Source: Alphaproteobacteria bacterium
GTDB taxonomy: Bacteria > Pseudomonadota > Alphaproteobacteria > UBA2966
Assembly (NCBI GenBank): GCA_030740435.1
Contig: JASLXG010000204.1
Coordinates: 1-38,525, forward strand
Reading direction: 5' to 3'
DNA length: 38,525 nucleotides
In this document: positions 870 to 18,178 of the stretch, one piece after another
Layout of the letters: each line of letters opens with the position of its first letter
Numbering within the stretch: position 1 is the first letter of the stretch
Notes under the pieces: generated by a model
Told to the model about the DNA's origin: nothing
The model's input: the letters and a program-made list of their open reading frames with translations, nothing else
Database searches by the model: none
Program-made: the position numbers and the translations under genes

Positions 870-1184
870 CAGTTGCGCTTTGGCGGTCGGGGGGAATCGG
901 CGGATTGCCAGCGCCGCGCCCTGGTCATGGCGCCCGAAGTGCTGCCGGTCGACGAGCCCTCGATCGGCCTCGAGCCGCGCTTCATCGACATGGTCTTCGA
1001 GATCCTCGACGATCTGCAGAACACGGAAGGCACGACCATCATCATGATCGAGCAGAACGCCAAGAAGGGTGTCGAATTCGCCGACATCGGCTATGTTTTG
1101 CTCTCGGACCAGGTGGCCATCGCCGGTTCGGGCGACGAGCTTTTGCAAGACCCCCAGGTCGGCCGCCTTTTCCTGGGCGGCTGA
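870..1184 (+). pseudogene. remnant of a LivF-type ABC transporter ATPase (C-terminal part)
   Basis: Only the last 90 or so residues of an ATP-binding subunit of a branched-chain amino-acid ABC transporter remain. What survives: a Walker B region read as ALVMAPEVLPVDEPSIGLEP, the switch region TTIIMIEQNAKKG with its H-loop degraded, and the LivF-type ending GDELLQDPQVGRLFLGG, followed by a stop. The Walker A half is absent. The ABC signature is scrambled: an SGG occurs in another frame at about 888-898, suggesting a frameshift or deletion junction there. LivF is usually about 235 residues. A functional protein is unlikely. It is probably a relic of the transporter that used the neighbouring binding protein. 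Confidence 0.8.
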
Positions 1185-1234: not shown

Positions 1235-2569
1235 ATGAATGAAGGCGCCGCAATTCTCGCCATCGGCGATATCCACCTTGGTACGGCCTGTTCGGGCCTG
1301 CCTGACGAGATTGCCGCCCTGGGTCTCGACCCCAGTGAACTGACGCCCGCCGCCGCGCTTGAGCTTTCGGTCGATTTTGCCCTTGCCGAGAAAGTCGACG
1401 CCGTGCTGTTTGCCGGCGACGTCGTGGAAAGCACGAATGCCAGGTTCGAGGCCATGCCGTCGCTCGAGGTGGGCGTCCGGCGGCTGGTGGAGGCCGGCAT
1501 CGCGGTCGTCGCCGTGGCCGGCAACCATGACGTCGAAGCCTTGCCCCGGCTGGCCACCCTGATCGAGGGCTTCAGCCTGCTGGGCGCCGCTGGCCAGTGG
1601 CAGGCGAGGGCGATAACGAAGAACGGCCGCCAGGTTGCCGAGATCGTCGGCTGGTCTTTTGGCGAGCGCTTCGTGCGTGAAAGCCCGGTTGCGCGGCTTC
1701 TGAAGGAGCCGCTCGAAGCGCCATCGGCAGCCATCCCGAGGATCGGTTTGCTGCATGCCGATCTCGACGCGGCCGGCGGGCACTACGCGCCGGTCAGACG
1801 GGCCGAGCTTGAAAATACCGGCTTCGAGGCCTGGTTACTCGGCCACATCCACAAGCCTTCTCTCGACAGTCTGTCGGCGGCGCCGGCGTCCCGGCCCATC
1901 GGCTACCTGGGCTCCCTCATTGCGCTCGATCCCTCGGAGACGGGCCCACACGGTCCATGGCTGGTGACAGTAGCCAAAGACGGCAAGCTTCGGCTGGAGC
2001 AGGTGCCGCTCGCGCCTCTTCGCTGGGAGCACATCGATGTTTCCATCGACGGGCTCGAGCTTGCCGAGGACGTACCCGACAGAATCCTGGACGAGGCAGC
2101 AAACTATGTTCGCCTGCTCGGCGAAACCGATAGCGCCCCCCGCGCCCTTGGGCTGCGCGTGCGGCTGACGGGGGCCAGCAGCCAATACGCGGAAATCCGG
2201 CGACTTATGGCGGGCAGCGATTGGCGCTCGCTGAGGCGTGTCGTTGACGACACCGCGGTCTTCGTCAACAAGATTTTCGATGCCATGGAGTTGCCGCTCG
2301 ACCTGGTGAGAATTGCCGCGGGAGACGATCCGGCAGCCCTGATGGCGCAACGCGTCTTGATACTTCAGCAAAACGGGAATGGCTCGCGGACCCTGCTCGA
2401 AAAGGCGCGGGCCCAATTGCGCAAGGTGGCCCAGGAGGATCTTTGGTCGCCCCTTCAGGATCATCGCCACGCCAGCGACCCGCTTGCGGACAATGCCTTG
2501 CGCGAGATGCTAATCCGGGCCGGCAAGGCGGCCCTGAACGCCATGCTGTCCGGGAGCGATCCGGCGTGA
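1235..2569 (+). CDS. SbcD/Mre11-like metallophosphoesterase (DNA exonuclease family)
   Basis: Calcineurin-like phosphoesterase of 444 residues, related to the SbcD/YhaO/Mre11 nucleases that work with an SMC-type ATPase at DNA ends. The metal-binding motifs appear in order: GDIHLG near residue 11, GDVVES near 62 (GDxxD-like), GNHDVE near 95, LLHADLD near 175, and GHIHKP near 204. I chose the ATG at 1235 because it lies just before the first motif; longer upstream reading is out of keeping with the family. The stop overlaps the GTG start of the next gene (GTGA), so the two are translationally coupled, as for sbcDC-type pairs. Nuclease polarity and substrate are not predictable. The alternative reading is a B. 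subtilis YhaO-type protein of unknown role. Confidence 0.88.
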   Translation: MNEGAAILAIGDIHLGTACSGLPDEIAALGLDPSELTPAAALELSVDFALAEKVDAVLFAGDVVESTNARFEAMPSLEVGVRRLVEAGIAVVAVAGNHDVEALPRLATLIEGFSLLGAAGQWQARAITKNGRQVAEIVGWSFGERFVRESPVARLLKEPLEAPSAAIPRIGLLHADLDAAGGHYAPVRRAELENTGFEAWLLGHIHKPSLDSLSAAPASRPIGYLGSLIALDPSETGPHGPWLVTVAKDGKLRLEQVPLAPLRWEHIDVSIDGLELAEDVPDRILDEAANYVRLLGETDSAPRALGLRVRLTGASSQYAEIRRLMAGSDWRSLRRVVDDTAVFVNKIFDAMELPLDLVRIAAGDDPAALMAQRVLILQQNGNGSRTLLEKARAQLRKVAQEDLWSPLQDHRHASDPLADNALREMLIRAGKAALNAMLSGSDPA

Positions 2570-5500
2570 GACTCAAGCGACTTGCCGTCAACCGGCTGCC
2601 CGGAATCAGCCAGTCCTTCGAGATCGAACTGGCGGAGGCCGGATTCCACGTCGTTTTCGGGCCCAACGGGATCGGCAAATCGAGCATTTGCCGGGCCGTC
2701 GAGAGTTTGTATTGGCAAGACCGCGGGCCGGAGCCGCCAACCTCGGTCAGCGGCGAGTTCGAGTTGGACGGCGAAACCTGGTGGGCCGAGCGCGAGGGCC
2801 CGCGGCTGCGCTGGCAGCGCGGCGGCGAGGACAGCCTGGCGCCGGACCTACCCCCTTCCCACACCCGCCATTGTTTTTTCCTGCGCCTCCTTGACCTGAT
2901 GGATCTCTCGCCGCATGGCACCCAAGACATCGCCTCCGAGATCCGCCGCCAGATGTCGGGCGGTTTCGATCTCGATCAGATCACCACGGACCTCTTTGCC
3001 GGCGCCGGCCCACGCCACGGCCGCAGCGAGTGGAAGGATTTCAACAGGGCATCGCTTGAGATCCAGGATGCCGAGGGAAGGCAGTCGGGCCTTCAGCGCC
3101 GCGCCGACCAACTGCAATCCCTGAACAGGGAACTCGTCGAGGCGGACCAGGGCGCGCATCGCCTGCCGGCTCTGGAACGCGCTCTCGGGCTTGCCGGGCG
3201 TCGCCAAGAACTTGCCGCCATCGAACAAGAGATGGCGATCCTGCCCGGCGCCCTGGCCAAGCTTGGCGGCAATGAGGTCGAGGAAATCGAGCGACTGCAG
3301 GCCCAGGTCGATGAGCTTGGCGAACGATCACGCGAGCTGCAAAAGCAGATGCACGATGCCAGCCAGGCGCAACGGGATATCGCGCTGCCGGGGATTTTGG
3401 AAGCTGGCGAACTTGCGGCCTGGCAGTCCAAGGCGAGCGAACTCGGCCGCTTGGAATTGGCGCTCCAGGCGGCCGCAACCGACAATCGCAGTTGTCTGGC
3501 CGAGCTTGCCGCGGCGCTCTCCGCCATGGGCGGCGGCGAGGTCGATGAGGTTGAGCTGAACCTCGATGACCATGGCCAATTGTTCGAATTCCTGCGCGAC
3601 GCCGAAGCCCACAAGGCCAGGACCGGGGTCGTCGAAGAAAGGCTGCGCCTTTTGTCGCAGCTCGGCGGCCCCGAAGGCAATCAGCACAACCTCGACAAAA
3701 TTCGCGATGCCGCGGATGTCTTGCGTTCCTGGCTGCGGGCGCCAGCGGCCCAATCCCTAGGCGGCCGCATCCGGGCGCGGCCATACTGGCTGGGCTTCGC
3801 TTGTGTCCTGGTTGTTGCGGGCGCCGCGCTGGGCCTCGCTGTCGATCCGCTGTTCGCCGTGCTCATGGCCATCGCTGCCGGCGTGGCCGGGCCGGTGCTG
3901 CTGCCGAGCAATCCGGGAGCCCGCGATGGCGGGCGCAAAACCGCCGAGGAGAGGTTCGCAAACCTCGGTCCCGAGGGGCCCGATATTTGGGACATTCCCT
4001 CCGTCGAGTCCCGCTTGCGCCAACTCGAGGGCGAGGCCGCAACCCTTGACGCGCATTTGCGGCGCGAGCGCGATCGTGACGTGGAACGGCAAACCCTCAA
4101 GAACGAGCTGGAAGGCTTGGCGGCGACGGAAACTGGCCTCGAGGCCAGGAGGCAGAGCCTGCAAGACGGCCTCAAACTTGCCGCCATCCGGCCCGATACG
4201 GAACTCGTCGATTTTGCCCGAGGGCTCGATCAGCTCCGCTCAGCCCGGCGCAAGCAGGTAGGTGCCGCGGCCAAGGTTGCCGACCTTGAAGCCAGGCACA
4301 CGGCGCTGCTCGAGGAAATGGCCCGCATCCTCGAAGACCACGGCGAGGCAGTGCCGACAGATGCCGCAACGGCCGGGGCGCGGCTCGACAACCTGGATAG
4401 GCGTAATACGCGCCTGATCCAGGCCCAGACCGACCAACGACGGGCCGCTGAGCAACTGGAGCAGGTTGCCGGCGATCAGGCCGCGGCCGGCAAATCGCTG
4501 CGGCGCATCTACGGCCGAGCGGAGCTCGAGGACGGTGATTTGCCTGGCCTCAAGGCGCTGTTGAATTCGTTGCCCCACTATGCCGGGCTGAAGCACGCCG
4601 CCCAACGCCTGGCAAGTCAGAATGAGCTTGATCGGGCCGAGCTTGGCAAGGCCGAGGAAGCCGAACTGGCCGAAGGCAACGCCCCGGCGCTCGAGCAGTT
4701 GCATGGCGAACTTTCCCAAAAGGCCGGCAAGGCCGGAGAATTGCGGGGCGAGATAGCCGAGATCAAGGCGCAGGTGGAGGCTGCCAGAAGCACCAGCAAT
4801 GTTCAGGATCTGCTTTCCCTGCGCGAGCAGGCCCGGACGAAATTGCAGGACCGCCGCTTTGAGGCGCTGTTCGAGGGCGCCGGAAGGTTTCTTGTTGGGG
4901 CCGTCGAGGAGGAACACGAGCAAACCCAGATGCCGCGCGTTTTCGAGCGCGCTCGCAACCATTTTTCGGCTTTTACCCATCATGGCTATGAACTTCGTTT
5001 GGCCAAACAGGGCCAGACGCCACGCCTGATCGCAAGCGATCTGGCGAGCGGCGAGGGGCGGGGCCTGGACGAACTTTCAGACGGCACCCGAACCCAGTTG
5101 CTGTTGGCGGCGCGACTGGCTTTCGCCGAGGAAGTCGAGGGCGGCAAAACCCTGCCCTTGTTCCTCGACGAGGCGCTCGACCAAAGCGATCCGGCGCGGT
5201 TTGCCGCCATGGTGCGCAGTCTCGGCCGGGTGGCAAAGGATCAGCAACGCCAGATCTTTTATTTCACCAGCGATCCTCTCGATATCGATCGAATCCAGCA
5301 GGCCCTGGCCGAAGAGAACTGCGAAAAGGCCACTTCCAGCGATTTGGGCCTGATTCGCACAAAGGCGGCAAGCGTCAGCGGGCCGGGGGCGCTTAAGGTC
5401 GGGCCGAGATCTTCGGTCCCGGCCCCCAACGGGGCCTCAAGCGAGGAATATGGAGCCAAACTTGGTGTCCCGGTACTGCGACCAGCCCAGGGTTTTGCCG

Positions 5501-6048
5501 CGCAGCATTTTTTCTATGTGCTTTGGGACGAGTTGGACTTGCTGCATGATTTCCTGGTGCACGGCATCGAGCGGGCGGGCCGATGGAAAACGGTTTCGGG
5601 CACCGCGCTGGCCGACAAGCTGGGCTCGCGCTCGCTATCTTCGCGGCAGATCGCCTTGCGGCTGGACTTGCTCGAGGTCTTTTGCGAGTTGTGGAAGCAA
5701 GGCAGAGGCCGGCCCGTCGATCGCCAGGCTCTCGAAAACAGCGCCGCCGTGACCGAGCGTTACCTCGATGACGTCGTGGCCATCGCCGCTGAATTAGGCG
5801 GCGATCCCGAGCGGCTTCTCGCCGAACTTGCGGAGAAAAAGGATCCCCGCCTGAGAGGCTTCCGAAGCGCCAGTTTCGACCAGCTGGAACGATACCTGCA
5901 CGACCACGGCTACCTCGACGACCAGCCCATCCTGACCGGGGACGAACTGCAGCTGCGCGCCTTGACCAGCCCGGCAGCCAACGAACTGGCCGCCGGCCCG
6001 GCCGGCGAATGTTTGCACCGCTGGTGGAATTGGGCCGCTCAGGCGTAA
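2566..6048 (+). CDS. SMC/SbcC/YhaN-like coiled-coil ATPase with mid-protein membrane segments
   Basis: A 1160-residue ATPase, partner of the phosphoesterase upstream. The N-terminal half-site has Walker A GPNGIGKSS at residues 32-40. Long Glu/Ala/Leu-rich coiled coils follow on both sides of a hydrophobic stretch (about 406-446, two likely membrane helices, from PYWLGFACVLVV). The C-terminal half-site has an ABC-type signature LSDGTRTQLLLAARL near 838 and Walker B LPLFLDEALDQSD near 864. This order and the central membrane hairpin match YhaN rather than classic SbcC with its zinc hook; I see no CxxC hook. About 200 further residues after the ATPase head (about 960-1160) look helical and unfamiliar. 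The GTG at 2566 starts the conserved RLKRLAVNRLPG; the open frame extends upstream only because it overlaps the phosphoesterase. Confidence 0.87.
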   Translation: MRLKRLAVNRLPGISQSFEIELAEAGFHVVFGPNGIGKSSICRAVESLYWQDRGPEPPTSVSGEFELDGETWWAEREGPRLRWQRGGEDSLAPDLPPSHTRHCFFLRLLDLMDLSPHGTQDIASEIRRQMSGGFDLDQITTDLFAGAGPRHGRSEWKDFNRASLEIQDAEGRQSGLQRRADQLQSLNRELVEADQGAHRLPALERALGLAGRRQELAAIEQEMAILPGALAKLGGNEVEEIERLQAQVDELGERSRELQKQMHDASQAQRDIALPGILEAGELAAWQSKASELGRLELALQAAATDNRSCLAELAAALSAMGGGEVDEVELNLDDHGQLFEFLRDAEAHKARTGVVEERLRLLSQLGGPEGNQHNLDKIRDAADVLRSWLRAPAAQSLGGRIRARPYWLGFACVLVVAGAALGLAVDPLFAVLMAIAAGVAGPVLLPSNPGARDGGRKTAEERFANLGPEGPDIWDIPSVESRLRQLEGEAATLDAHLRRERDRDVERQTLKNELEGLAATETGLEARRQSLQDGLKLAAIRPDTELVDFARGLDQLRSARRKQVGAAAKVADLEARHTALLEEMARILEDHGEAVPTDAATAGARLDNLDRRNTRLIQAQTDQRRAAEQLEQVAGDQAAAGKSLRRIYGRAELEDGDLPGLKALLNSLPHYAGLKHAAQRLASQNELDRAELGKAEEAELAEGNAPALEQLHGELSQKAGKAGELRGEIAEIKAQVEAARSTSNVQDLLSLREQARTKLQDRRFEALFEGAGRFLVGAVEEEHEQTQMPRVFERARNHFSAFTHHGYELRLAKQGQTPRLIASDLASGEGRGLDELSDGTRTQLLLAARLAFAEEVEGGKTLPLFLDEALDQSDPARFAAMVRSLGRVAKDQQRQIFYFTSDPLDIDRIQQALAEENCEKATSSDLGLIRTKAASVSGPGALKVGPRSSVPAPNGASSEEYGAKLGVPVLRPAQGFAAQHFFYVLWDELDLLHDFLVHGIERAGRWKTVSGTALADKLGSRSLSSRQIALRLDLLEVFCELWKQGRGRPVDRQALENSAAVTERYLDDVVAIAAELGGDPERLLAELAEKKDPRLRGFRSASFDQLERYLHDHGYLDDQPILTGDELQLRALTSPAANELAAGPAGECLHRWWNWAAQA

Positions 6049-15471: not shown

Positions 15472-16635
15472 CAGCCCGTCGTAGTAGGCCTGCAGCACCT
15501 GCACGATTTCCGGCCGGCTGAATTCCAGGGGAATCTCCTCGTGGTTGGCGAACATTTCGCGCAACCGCGTGCCCGAGATATTGAGCCGCTCGTCGTCGCC
15601 GTGGGGGCAGGTGCGGCCGGTGGCCAGGCTGCCGCAGGAAAAGCAGAAAAAAGTGATATCGATCTTCAGCGGTTTGGTCTCCAGCGCCCCTGAGGGGATC
15701 TCGTCGAAGATATGCTGGGCATCGAAGGGGCCGTAATAATCGCCGACGCCGGCGTGGTCGCGGCCCACCACCAGGTCCGAACAGCCGAAGTTCTGGCGGA
15801 ATAGAGCATGCAACAAGGCCTCGCGCGGCCCGGCGTAGCGCATCTCGATGGGGTAGCCGGCCTGGACCACGGTGCCGGGCACGAAATAGTTCTCCACCAG
15901 GGCGTCGATGGCGGCCACCCGCACGTCGGCCGGGATGTCGCCGGGCTTGAGCTTGCCCAGCACCTGGTGAATCAGAAGACCGTCGCAAATCTCGACGGCG
16001 ATCTTGGCCAGGTATTCGTGGCTCCGGTGCATGGGGTTGCGGGTCTGGAAGGCGGCGACGCGCGACCAGCCATTGGCGGCGAAGGCCGCGCGGGTCTCGG
16101 CCGGGCGCATGTAAAGATCGGCATGGCGGCCCGGAAGGTCGCCCTCGTCCAGCACCTGCACATGGCCGGCCAGGTTGACCTCGGGCTGGGCCATCACCTT
16201 CTCGACACCGGGGTGGGCCGGATCCTCGGTGCGGAAGACCGAACGGCATTCCAGCGCCTTGTCGATCTGGTATTTTTCCTCGAGCGTCATGAGCGCCATG
16301 ATGGTGCCCGCTTCGCCGTCCACCAACGCCACCTCGTCGCCGAGCTTCAGGCCGGCAGCCAACTCGCTCGAGCAGGAAAGCGTAATCGGGATGGGCCAGA
16401 AGAGGCCGTCCTTGAGCTGCATGTCGGTGCAGACGCCGTGCCAGTCGTCGTGCCCCATGAAGCCCGCGAGCGGCGAATAGGCGCCCATCGAAAGCATCAG
16501 CAGGTCCGAAACCTCGCGGCTCGATAGCGGTATCTGGGCAAGTCCCGCGGCATGCGTTAGGGTCTCGGCGCGTTCCACCGCAGTGGCCAGTAGGGGCTTC
16601 AGCGCCCCACCATGAGGCTTTACCAGTTCCGACAT
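15469..16635 (-). CDS. sat: sulfate adenylyltransferase (ATP sulfurylase), dissimilatory type
   Basis: A 388-residue homo-oligomeric ATP sulfurylase. In sulfur oxidisers it runs in the direction APS plus pyrophosphate to ATP plus sulfate, a substrate-level phosphorylation. The active-site motif [15 protein letters not shown] (QxRNPxHxxH) and [18 protein letters not shown] are intact. A Cys-rich [18 protein letters not shown] precedes the conserved [10 protein letters not shown]. No APS-kinase domain is fused, which fits a dissimilatory rather than assimilatory role. The start at 16635 ([10 protein letters not shown]) has a clear GGGAGGAAT. It diverges from the qmo operon and converges on ccdA. 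Confidence 0.96.
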
Positions 16636-16702
16636 GATTCCTCCCGATCTTCCCGACAATATGTTTGTTGTTGGCGGCTGGAGCCGCGATTTTTTGTAGC
16701 AG

Positions 16703-16726
16703 ATGATAGCGGCCTCGGGCTATCAT
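16703..16726. promoter_or_regulatory. perfect inverted repeat in the sat/qmoA divergent promoter region
   Basis: ATGATAGC, 8 bases, then GCTATCAT form a perfect 8-bp-arm dyad 67 bases from the sat start and 177 from the qmoA start. The surrounding 16636-16903 is AT-rich and gene-free. A dimeric regulator controlling both sides is plausible; no regulator gene is adjacent. Confidence 0.45.
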
Positions 16727-16903
16727 TAAATTCAAAAGATCTAATGAACGAATTGAATGTAAATTGGGTTTGTTTTTCGCCGACAAAAAAAATTGGCTGG
16801 GTGGCTTAGTGGGGGCTATTTTCGGCGTAGGGCAGGGAATCATGAATTTATCCATATGTGACAAAGGGTTATTCGATATGAGCCAAATCCGGCGGAGGCC
16901 GGC

Positions 16904-18178
16904 GTGAGCAGCGATCCCGGCAGCACCATCCTGGTGGTCGGCGGCGGTATCGTCGGCATCAGCGCCGCCGTGGAGGCGGCCGAGGTGGGTTTTGACGTCG
17001 TGCTGGTGGAGCGCGAGGCCAGCCTGGGCGGCCGCGTGGCGCGGCTCAACCGCTACTTCCCCAAGCTCTGCCATCCCGCCTGCGGGCTCGAGATCAACTA
17101 CCAGCGCCTGCGCCAGAACCCGCGGGTGCGAGTCATCACCATGGCCGAGGTGGCCACGATCGAGGGCCGGGTCGGCGATTTTCAGGTAACGCTCAGCACC
17201 CGGCCGCGCTACGTCACCCAGGCCTGCACGGCCTGTGGCGATTGCGCCCGGGCGGCCCAGAGCGAAGTGGCCGATGCCTTCAATTACGGCCTCTCCAAGG
17301 TGCCCGCCGCCTATCTCCCGGAGAGCCAGGCCTATCCGCTGCGCTACGTCATCGCGCCCGAGGTCATCGGCACGCCGGAGGCGGCGGCCCTTAAAGACGC
17401 CTGCCGCTACGGCGCCGTCGACCTCGACGAGCAGCCCGGCAGCATCGAGTTCAAGGTCGGCGCCGTGGTCTGGGCCACCGGCTGGCGGCCCTACGATGCC
17501 GGCCGCCTGGAATCTTATGGCTACGGGCGGCTGGCCAACGTCATCACCAACGTCGAGATGGAGCGCCTGGCCGCCCCCGAGGGCCCCACAGGGGGCCGTA
17601 TTTTGCGACCCTCGGACGGACGCGAAGCGCAACGCCTGGCGCTGATCCAGTGCGCCGGCTCGCGCGATCTCAACCACCTGCCCTATTGCTCGCGGATCTG
17701 CTGCATGGCGTCGTTCAAGCACGCCGCCTATGTGCGCCAGCAATACGCCGAGGCCAGCGTCGACATCTATTACATCGACATCCGCGCCGACAACAAACTG
17801 GAGGCCTTCTACCGCCGCGTCGCCGACGACGACCGCATCCGCCTGATCAAATCCAAACCCGGTGCCATCGAGGAGGACACTGATAAGAACCCCATCGTCA
17901 AGGGCGAGGACACGCTGAGCCGCGAGCTTTACGGCAACACCTACGACCTGGTGGTGCTGGCCGTCGGCATGCAGCCGAATGCGGCGCTCGAGGCGCCGGC
18001 GCTCGAGCTCAGCCAGGACGATTATGGTTTCATCGTGCCCGACCTGGCGGCGGGCCAGATCGTGGCCGGCGTGGCAGCGGGACCGCTGGATGTCTCGATG
18101 TCGGTGCAGTCGGCCACGGCGGCGGCGCTGCGCGCCATCCAGGCGCTCAACGCCAGCAAACGAGTGGCGGCGGAGTAG
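16904..18178 (+). CDS. qmoA: QmoA, HdrA-like flavoprotein of the quinone-interacting oxidoreductase complex
   Basis: FAD-binding, HdrA-related subunit of the Qmo complex, which exchanges electrons between APS reductase and the membrane quinone pool. The 424-residue protein begins with a Rossmann dinucleotide motif (ILVVGGGIVGISAAVEAAE). It carries CTACGDC near residue 109, a second flavin motif VVWATGWRPYDA, and the HdrA/QmoA Cys block CAGSRDLNHLPYCSRICC. It is a stand-alone short HdrA without fused ferredoxin domains, as QmoA should be. GTG at 16904 is preceded by GGCGGAGG. qmoB follows after four bases. The acidic GTG start and the Rossmann fold at once exclude longer readings. Confidence 0.93.
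   Translation: MSSDPGSTILVVGGGIVGISAAVEAAEVGFDVVLVEREASLGGRVARLNRYFPKLCHPACGLEINYQRLRQNPRVRVITMAEVATIEGRVGDFQVTLSTRPRYVTQACTACGDCARAAQSEVADAFNYGLSKVPAAYLPESQAYPLRYVIAPEVIGTPEAAALKDACRYGAVDLDEQPGSIEFKVGAVVWATGWRPYDAGRLESYGYGRLANVITNVEMERLAAPEGPTGGRILRPSDGREAQRLALIQCAGSRDLNHLPYCSRICCMASFKHAAYVRQQYAEASVDIYYIDIRADNKLEAFYRRVADDDRIRLIKSKPGAIEEDTDKNPIVKGEDTLSRELYGNTYDLVVLAVGMQPNAALEAPALELSQDDYGFIVPDLAAGQIVAGVAAGPLDVSMSVQSATAAALRAIQALNASKRVAAE

Follow-up and report, generated by a model that had tools for sequence, protein, structure and literature searches.

A Coupled Mre11-Type Nuclease and Rad50-Like ATPase Gene Pair with a Hydrophobic Hairpin and a Family-Specific C-Terminal Tail

Organization of the Gene Pair and Features of Its Products

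The window, that is, the whole stretch of 38,525 nucleotides analysed here, contains a coupled unit of just two genes, which encode an Mre11/YhaO-type nuclease and an SMC/Rad50-like ATPase (Table 1). They form a unit of 4.8 kb, whose base composition shows no contrast with the rest of the window. The GTGA overlap between an SbcD-like nuclease gene and an ATPase gene, reported in a preliminary description of this DNA, was confirmed at 2566-2569. An overlap of 4 nt was found in 18 of 20 complete pairs, archaeal ones included, and was counted as 8 nt in the remaining two with the starts used; in all 20, the nuclease gene lies directly upstream of the ATPase gene. The nuclease and the ATPase diverge together: their pairwise identities are correlated with an r of 0.978 (190 comparisons among the 20 pairs), and the trees of the two proteins contain the same main groups. 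These 20 aligned pairs comprise archaeal and bacterial members. The set excludes G485, the remnant L008 from archaea, and G492, whose nuclease is cut off where its contig stops. Genome G765, with 7% contamination, was excluded from the trees; its copy and the genes downstream nearly match those of G138, and the copy may be a contaminant.

Table 1. Features of the nuclease-ATPase locus in window coordinates (residue numbers refer to the ATPase).
Feature	Position	Strand	Description
Mre11/YhaO-type nuclease gene	1235..2569	+	444 aa; metallophosphoesterase core about 1253-1858
SMC/Rad50-like ATPase gene	2566..6048	+	1160 aa, GTG start
GTGA overlap, nuclease stop/ATPase start	2566..2569	+	Suggests translational coupling
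Walker A GPNGIGKS	2659..2682	+	Residues 32-39; G.N..GK[ST] in 20/20
First coiled coil	3046..3750	+	About residues 161-395; helical in the predicted model, low overall confidence
Hydrophobic hairpin, predicted to anchor the coil apex in the membrane	3784..3903	+	Residues 407-446
Second coiled coil	3928..4905	+	About residues 455-780; from the predicted model
ABC signature LSDGT	5074..5088	+	Residues 837-841; LS[SDT][GA]T in all family rows of an 18-member alignment
Walker B PLFLDEAL	5155..5178	+	Residues 864-871; D868 and E869 kept
H-loop region FYFTSD	5257..5274	+	Residues 898-903; without histidine
Family-specific C-terminal tail domain	5359..6045	+	Residues 932-1160 (229 residues); predicted all-helical
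Tail motif GRGRPVDR	5701..5724	+	Residues 1046-1053; GRG..V in 20/20

The nuclease matches the Pfam family Metallophos (E 3.9e-13), and a family profile compared with solved structures matched those of Mre11/SbcD (best E 3.3e-15). Residues D12, H14, D62, N97, H98, D99, H174, H204, and H206 are invariant in all 20 nucleases. We take these nine positions to be the metal-ligand and catalytic residues of Mre11, and the Mre11-type active site, as judged from them, is intact.

Rad50 structures match the ATPase at both head lobes (family profile; best E 4.9e-11), and its Pfam matches, to AAA_27 and SMC_N, are confined to residues 1-50. The two Walker B acids are invariant in 17 of 17 ATPases; when the entire motif was searched as a regular expression, 19 of 20 rows matched, the exception being L075. 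The H-loop pattern FY[FL][TS]H was found in none of the 20 ATPases, whereas both YhaN-type proteins compared, those of genomes G395 and G396, have THH at this position; the missing histidine may make ATP hydrolysis slow, or abolish it, unlike in Rad50. The model predicted for the full-length ATPase was poor, with a mean pLDDT of 53.0.

Between the coils, the best hydrophobic 40-mer occupies the same position in all 20 aligned relatives, and in the window it lies where a membrane hairpin had been placed earlier (residues about 406-446). Its mean Kyte-Doolittle hydropathy over the 40 residues is 2.04, a value reached by none of 2000 shuffles. The single 19-residue hydropathy peak of the ATPase, reached by 37 of 2000 shuffles, is alone not decisive, and the usual threshold of 1.6 was passed by 496 of 1000 shuffles. 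In bacteria, the flanks of the hairpin carry a net positive charge or none, with the exception of one C-flank. The N-flank is net negative in seven of eight archaeal members, proteins that are acidic along their whole length. The preliminary description had also seen no zinc hook; indeed, CxxC is absent from the 17 full-length ATPases tested, as well as from the L008 remnant. We infer that the hairpin would insert in the membrane, and it could instead serve as a soluble hydrophobic dimer contact. The two YhaN-type proteins lack a hydrophobic hairpin (maximum 19-residue hydropathy of 0.99 and 1.11); Bacillus YhaN carries a hairpin.

Beyond the ATPase head, the same description had noted about 200 residues that it did not recognise. 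This tail is real and conserved as far as the archaea, but it is slightly longer than stated (Table 1), and no known SbcC/YhaN domain matched it. It is present in each of the 20 complete pairs and aligns across 18 sequences, archaeal included, with an invariant GRG. In the tail core (1040-1130), the identity of the window protein averages 0.36 with archaeal members and 0.42 with the gammaproteobacterial group, compared with lower values of 0.27 and 0.33, respectively, in the ATPase N-lobe. The window tail had no match in Pfam, NCBIfam, or PADLOC. Ish1, a domain of the helix-extension-helix type, was the sole recurrent Pfam match over 18 tails, and its assignment was rejected as too weak to claim (5/18, best E 0.029); a search of the tail profile against PDB sequences gave a best E of only 0.093. 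The structure prediction proposed earlier for the tail returned an all-helical model, but a weak one (mean pLDDT 55.5, from three sequences) with which the fold search was uninformative: Foldseek gave a best E of 1.7, and VIA-align on Foldseek's own matches gave a best Z of 3.9 over 56 residues at 2.8 A rmsd. Across 754 genomes (385 of the window's class and 369 Gammaproteobacteria), a tail-only profile found the tail fused to this ATPase alone. A single further match, of borderline significance (E 8.7e-4), lay close to a Fic-like protein with a C-terminal winged-helix-like region (by eye) and was taken as chance.

Distribution and Genomic Neighbourhoods

The pair is patchy and apparently horizontally spread, and it is not core in the window's own family or class. 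The window's genome holds one copy, and the six other genomes searched of its family hold none. At class level, where two or at most seven candidates were scored in each genome and the counts are lower bounds, the tail-bearing pair occurs in at least 3 of the 385 genomes searched in the window's class and at least 8 of 369 genomes of Gammaproteobacteria, the class of G395; a partial match in G250, without the tail, was not counted. A tail of a known SbcC/YhaN type together with a core housekeeping role in all relatives would have counted against the preliminary description; neither was found. In one genus the pair is present in 4 of 11 species, one of them (G765) perhaps through contamination, and the G200 site is free of the pair in its sister species G370 and also in G768, whose copy sits elsewhere. 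In one gammaproteobacterial family, the pair was found in three of three genomes. In the ATPase tree, the copy from the gammaproteobacterial order Arenicellales (L002, in G395) falls in one group with those of the window, G138, and Albidovulum (98/98). As Albidovulum belongs to the Alphaproteobacteria, this group spans more than one class. Among 72,556 plasmid records, nine carry the pair, all of them large haloarchaeal replicons, one with a remnant (L008). Four scans of viral contigs found no relative, the sole matches being two short ones to the Walker region in one scan, and the phage records searched with the tail had none either.

Several of the haloarchaeal plasmids carry replication genes within 10 kb of the pair, and their neighbourhoods are varied. 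For instance, the ATPase gene of L007 shares its 3' end with an overlapping pAgo/PIWI-like gene (15533-17731); L009 has a Tiamat-like TmtA gene upstream of the pair and L079 an HNH gene downstream of it, with PD-(D/E)XK and UvrD genes also near the pair in L007 and L079. Toxin-antitoxin-like and primase genes are near the pair in L005. The neighbours in L078 (910-9843) include a PLD-like protein and two DEAD/DEAH helicases, one of them MrfA-like with an MZB domain, in addition to an RNase_H_2 protein with a helix-hairpin-helix beside the pair; these genes are possibly a repair or defence cluster. Upstream of the pair in L004 (4906-10541), two large proteins are encoded, the first without a Pfam match and the second with an NrS-1 polymerase-type domain. 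Similarly sized and placed genes are seen upstream of the pair in L009 and L077, and the two large proteins seem recurrent. Plasmid NZ_CP119813.1 of Halorussus caseinilyticus (L007 and L080) contains a 22-kb duplication with 99.8% identity that carries a second copy of the pair. A natural nuclease-ATPase fusion was considered for this copy and rejected; it is frameshifted, with the genes joined in one frame and a shortened ATPase, within the duplication. The frameshift could reflect decay or a sequencing error.

The 14 bacterial loci, with 117 neighbouring ORFs (called mechanically, some of them not genes), showed no coherent defence context. The PADLOC matches of these neighbours were mostly to models hit by one member (25 of 55 families listed), which we take, judging by name, to be kinase models. 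Around the bacterial copies examined, the genes look ordinary and metabolic by eye. The G200 site was considered as a defence hotspot and rejected, as metabolic-looking genes (by eye) occupy the slot in G370 and G768 between the same flanks. In the window itself, a 103-codon fragment upstream of the pair (873-1184, forward strand) resembles by eye the 3' end of a LivF-type ABC transporter ATPase, with no match in Pfam, and a reversed substrate-binding gene of the Peripla_BP_6 family lies further upstream (2-661). Together, the fragment and the reversed gene suggest that the pair perhaps landed next to a transporter operon or disrupted one.

Proposed Mechanism and Alternative Functions

With slightly more belief than doubt, we regard the pair as a mobile, membrane-tethered DNA-end processor of the Mre11-Rad50 type with a family-specific tail. 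Membrane-tethered DNA-end processing, one of the functions raised in the preliminary description, fits the anatomy, namely an active site kept in 20/20 nucleases, a Rad50-like head, a conserved hairpin, and constant pairing. The sequences themselves show the two genes and their conservation, the active-site residues, the hydrophobic hairpin, the tail, the patchy distribution, and the joint divergence; complex formation, the DNA-end substrate, the role of the tail, and the purpose of the system are inferred. A metal-dependent nuclease dimer would sit on a dimer of ATPase heads in one Mre11-Rad50-like complex, from which the coiled coils would extend to the hydrophobic hairpin, standing in for a zinc hook, with the apex anchored in the cytoplasmic membrane. 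Upon ATP binding, the heads would clamp a DNA end or hairpin and open it to the nuclease, which would then trim or nick it. The helical tail by each head may be a DNA- or partner-binding module controlling access or activation, a role that is a guess since the tail model is weak. The substrate would be DNA ends near the envelope, belonging to entering, replicating, or broken mobile DNA, and the unit would be an accessory module that moves horizontally and is retained by plasmids and scattered hosts.

The principal alternative is an anti-invader system, also raised earlier, in which a membrane-anchored complex recognises the free ends or replication structures of entering phage or plasmid DNA and degrades it. 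The Lamassu LmuB model PDLC03859, the closest PADLOC model, matches 17 of 17 ATPases (best E 3.3e-19) and neither of the two YhaN-type controls at 1e-4, and the patchy, apparently horizontal spread points in the same direction. The survey for defence genes around the pair, as then proposed, gave a divided answer: the haloarchaeal plasmids have pAgo-like, Tiamat-like, and HNH neighbours, but the bacterial loci have no coherent defence cluster, and several of the archaeal neighbours belong to replication or repair, among them an NrS-1-type polymerase domain, a primase, and an MrfA-like helicase. In addition, the likeness to LmuB is confined to the shared coil and head regions, and no LmuA or LmuC partner accompanies it. 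On this balance, an anti-invader role is rather unlikely. A more specific and unlikely version, offered as speculation, is that a machine of the Mre11-Rad50 type stationed at the envelope destroys or processes entering DNA with free ends, with the tail acting as a sensor or licence that separates foreign ends from the cell's own.

The archaeal neighbours also bear on a role in repair, in which the pair would be a chromosome or plasmid repair nuclease replacing SbcCD/YhaON where these are lacking, the hairpin merely organising the coils. In L078, the MrfA-like helicase and RNase_H_2 genes beside the pair would suit such a role; a further sbcD-like match is absent from the window's genome, and the sbcD model exceeds its cut-off in none of 41 genomes (the window's own and relatives). 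The presence of the pair throughout one gammaproteobacterial family suits resident repair as well as a mobile role. However, the pair coexists in two genomes with a YhaN and its YhaO-like nuclease, and relatives do without such a system altogether, which makes a repair substitute distinctly improbable. It is more doubtful still that the pair maintains plasmids or acts against competitors, by processing the replication ends of its own replicon or destroying rival plasmids. In archaea, where the search covered plasmid records, all nine matches are large haloarchaeal replicons, and the replication genes near several of them would be consistent with plasmid maintenance, but the bacterial copies sit among ordinary, metabolic-looking genes.

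SMC/Rad50 relatives have repeatedly turned into immune machines, such as Wadjet and Lamassu. A distinct branch combining an Mre11-type nuclease whose active site is intact, a hydrophobic hairpin instead of the hook, and a domain seen in no other setting across the genomes searched would link repair complexes with immune systems and would make it testable whether DNA ends are policed at the membrane.

Comparison with Known Systems

A literature search of CC-licensed papers returned no description of this pair; the ABC ATPase classification of Krishnan and colleagues from 2020 may include this family. The pair resembles Wadjet (JetABCD) in its long coiled-coil ATPase, with weak JetC matches in some members, but it differs in a nuclease of another fold and in the Mre11-type nature of the adjacent partner; kleisin, KITE, and JetD partners were not noticed. 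As for Lamassu, the PDLC03859 match is restricted to coils and head in those members that were inspected, and the window ATPase is matched over residues 1-46 (E 0.00015). Neither LmuA nor LmuC is found in the two-gene unit of the window, and the partner is an Mre11-type nuclease in all 20 pairs. According to PMC10586767, LmuB generally has a Walker B glutamine and about 650 residues, whereas the ATPase described here keeps the Walker B glutamate.

The likeness to SbcCD/Mre11-Rad50 extends to the nuclease fold, the catalytic residues, the Rad50-like head, and the coupling of the genes. In contrast with that system, the zinc hook is replaced by a hydrophobic hairpin, a tail is added, and the nuclease scores 42.9 bits with the TIGR00619 sbcD model, under the cut-off of 77.65, which was exceeded in none of 10 genomes or records.

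YhaO-YhaN, also known as SbcEF, shares with the pair a nuclease gene beside a coiled-coil ATPase gene, an LS.GT-type signature, and a weak match to AAA_27, and over 317 residues the nuclease shares 29% identity with the YhaO-like protein encoded in G395 (E 6e-24). The earlier likening of the hairpin to YhaN holds in part: hairpin and tail are both absent from the two YhaN-type proteins. These end at the head, and the ATPase of the pair differs from them in its 229-residue tail, its hairpin, and the loss of the H-loop histidine. They score 240.9 (G395) and 178.5 bits (G396) with AAA_27, compared with 25.4 bits (cut-off 22) over just 51 of 206 positions for the window ATPase. Both genomes carry this pair plus the separate YhaN-type protein beside a YhaO-like nuclease, and since the pair coexists there with a YhaN lacking both tail and hairpin, it is, on the evidence of the protein sequences, a sister branch distinct from the housekeeping YhaON.
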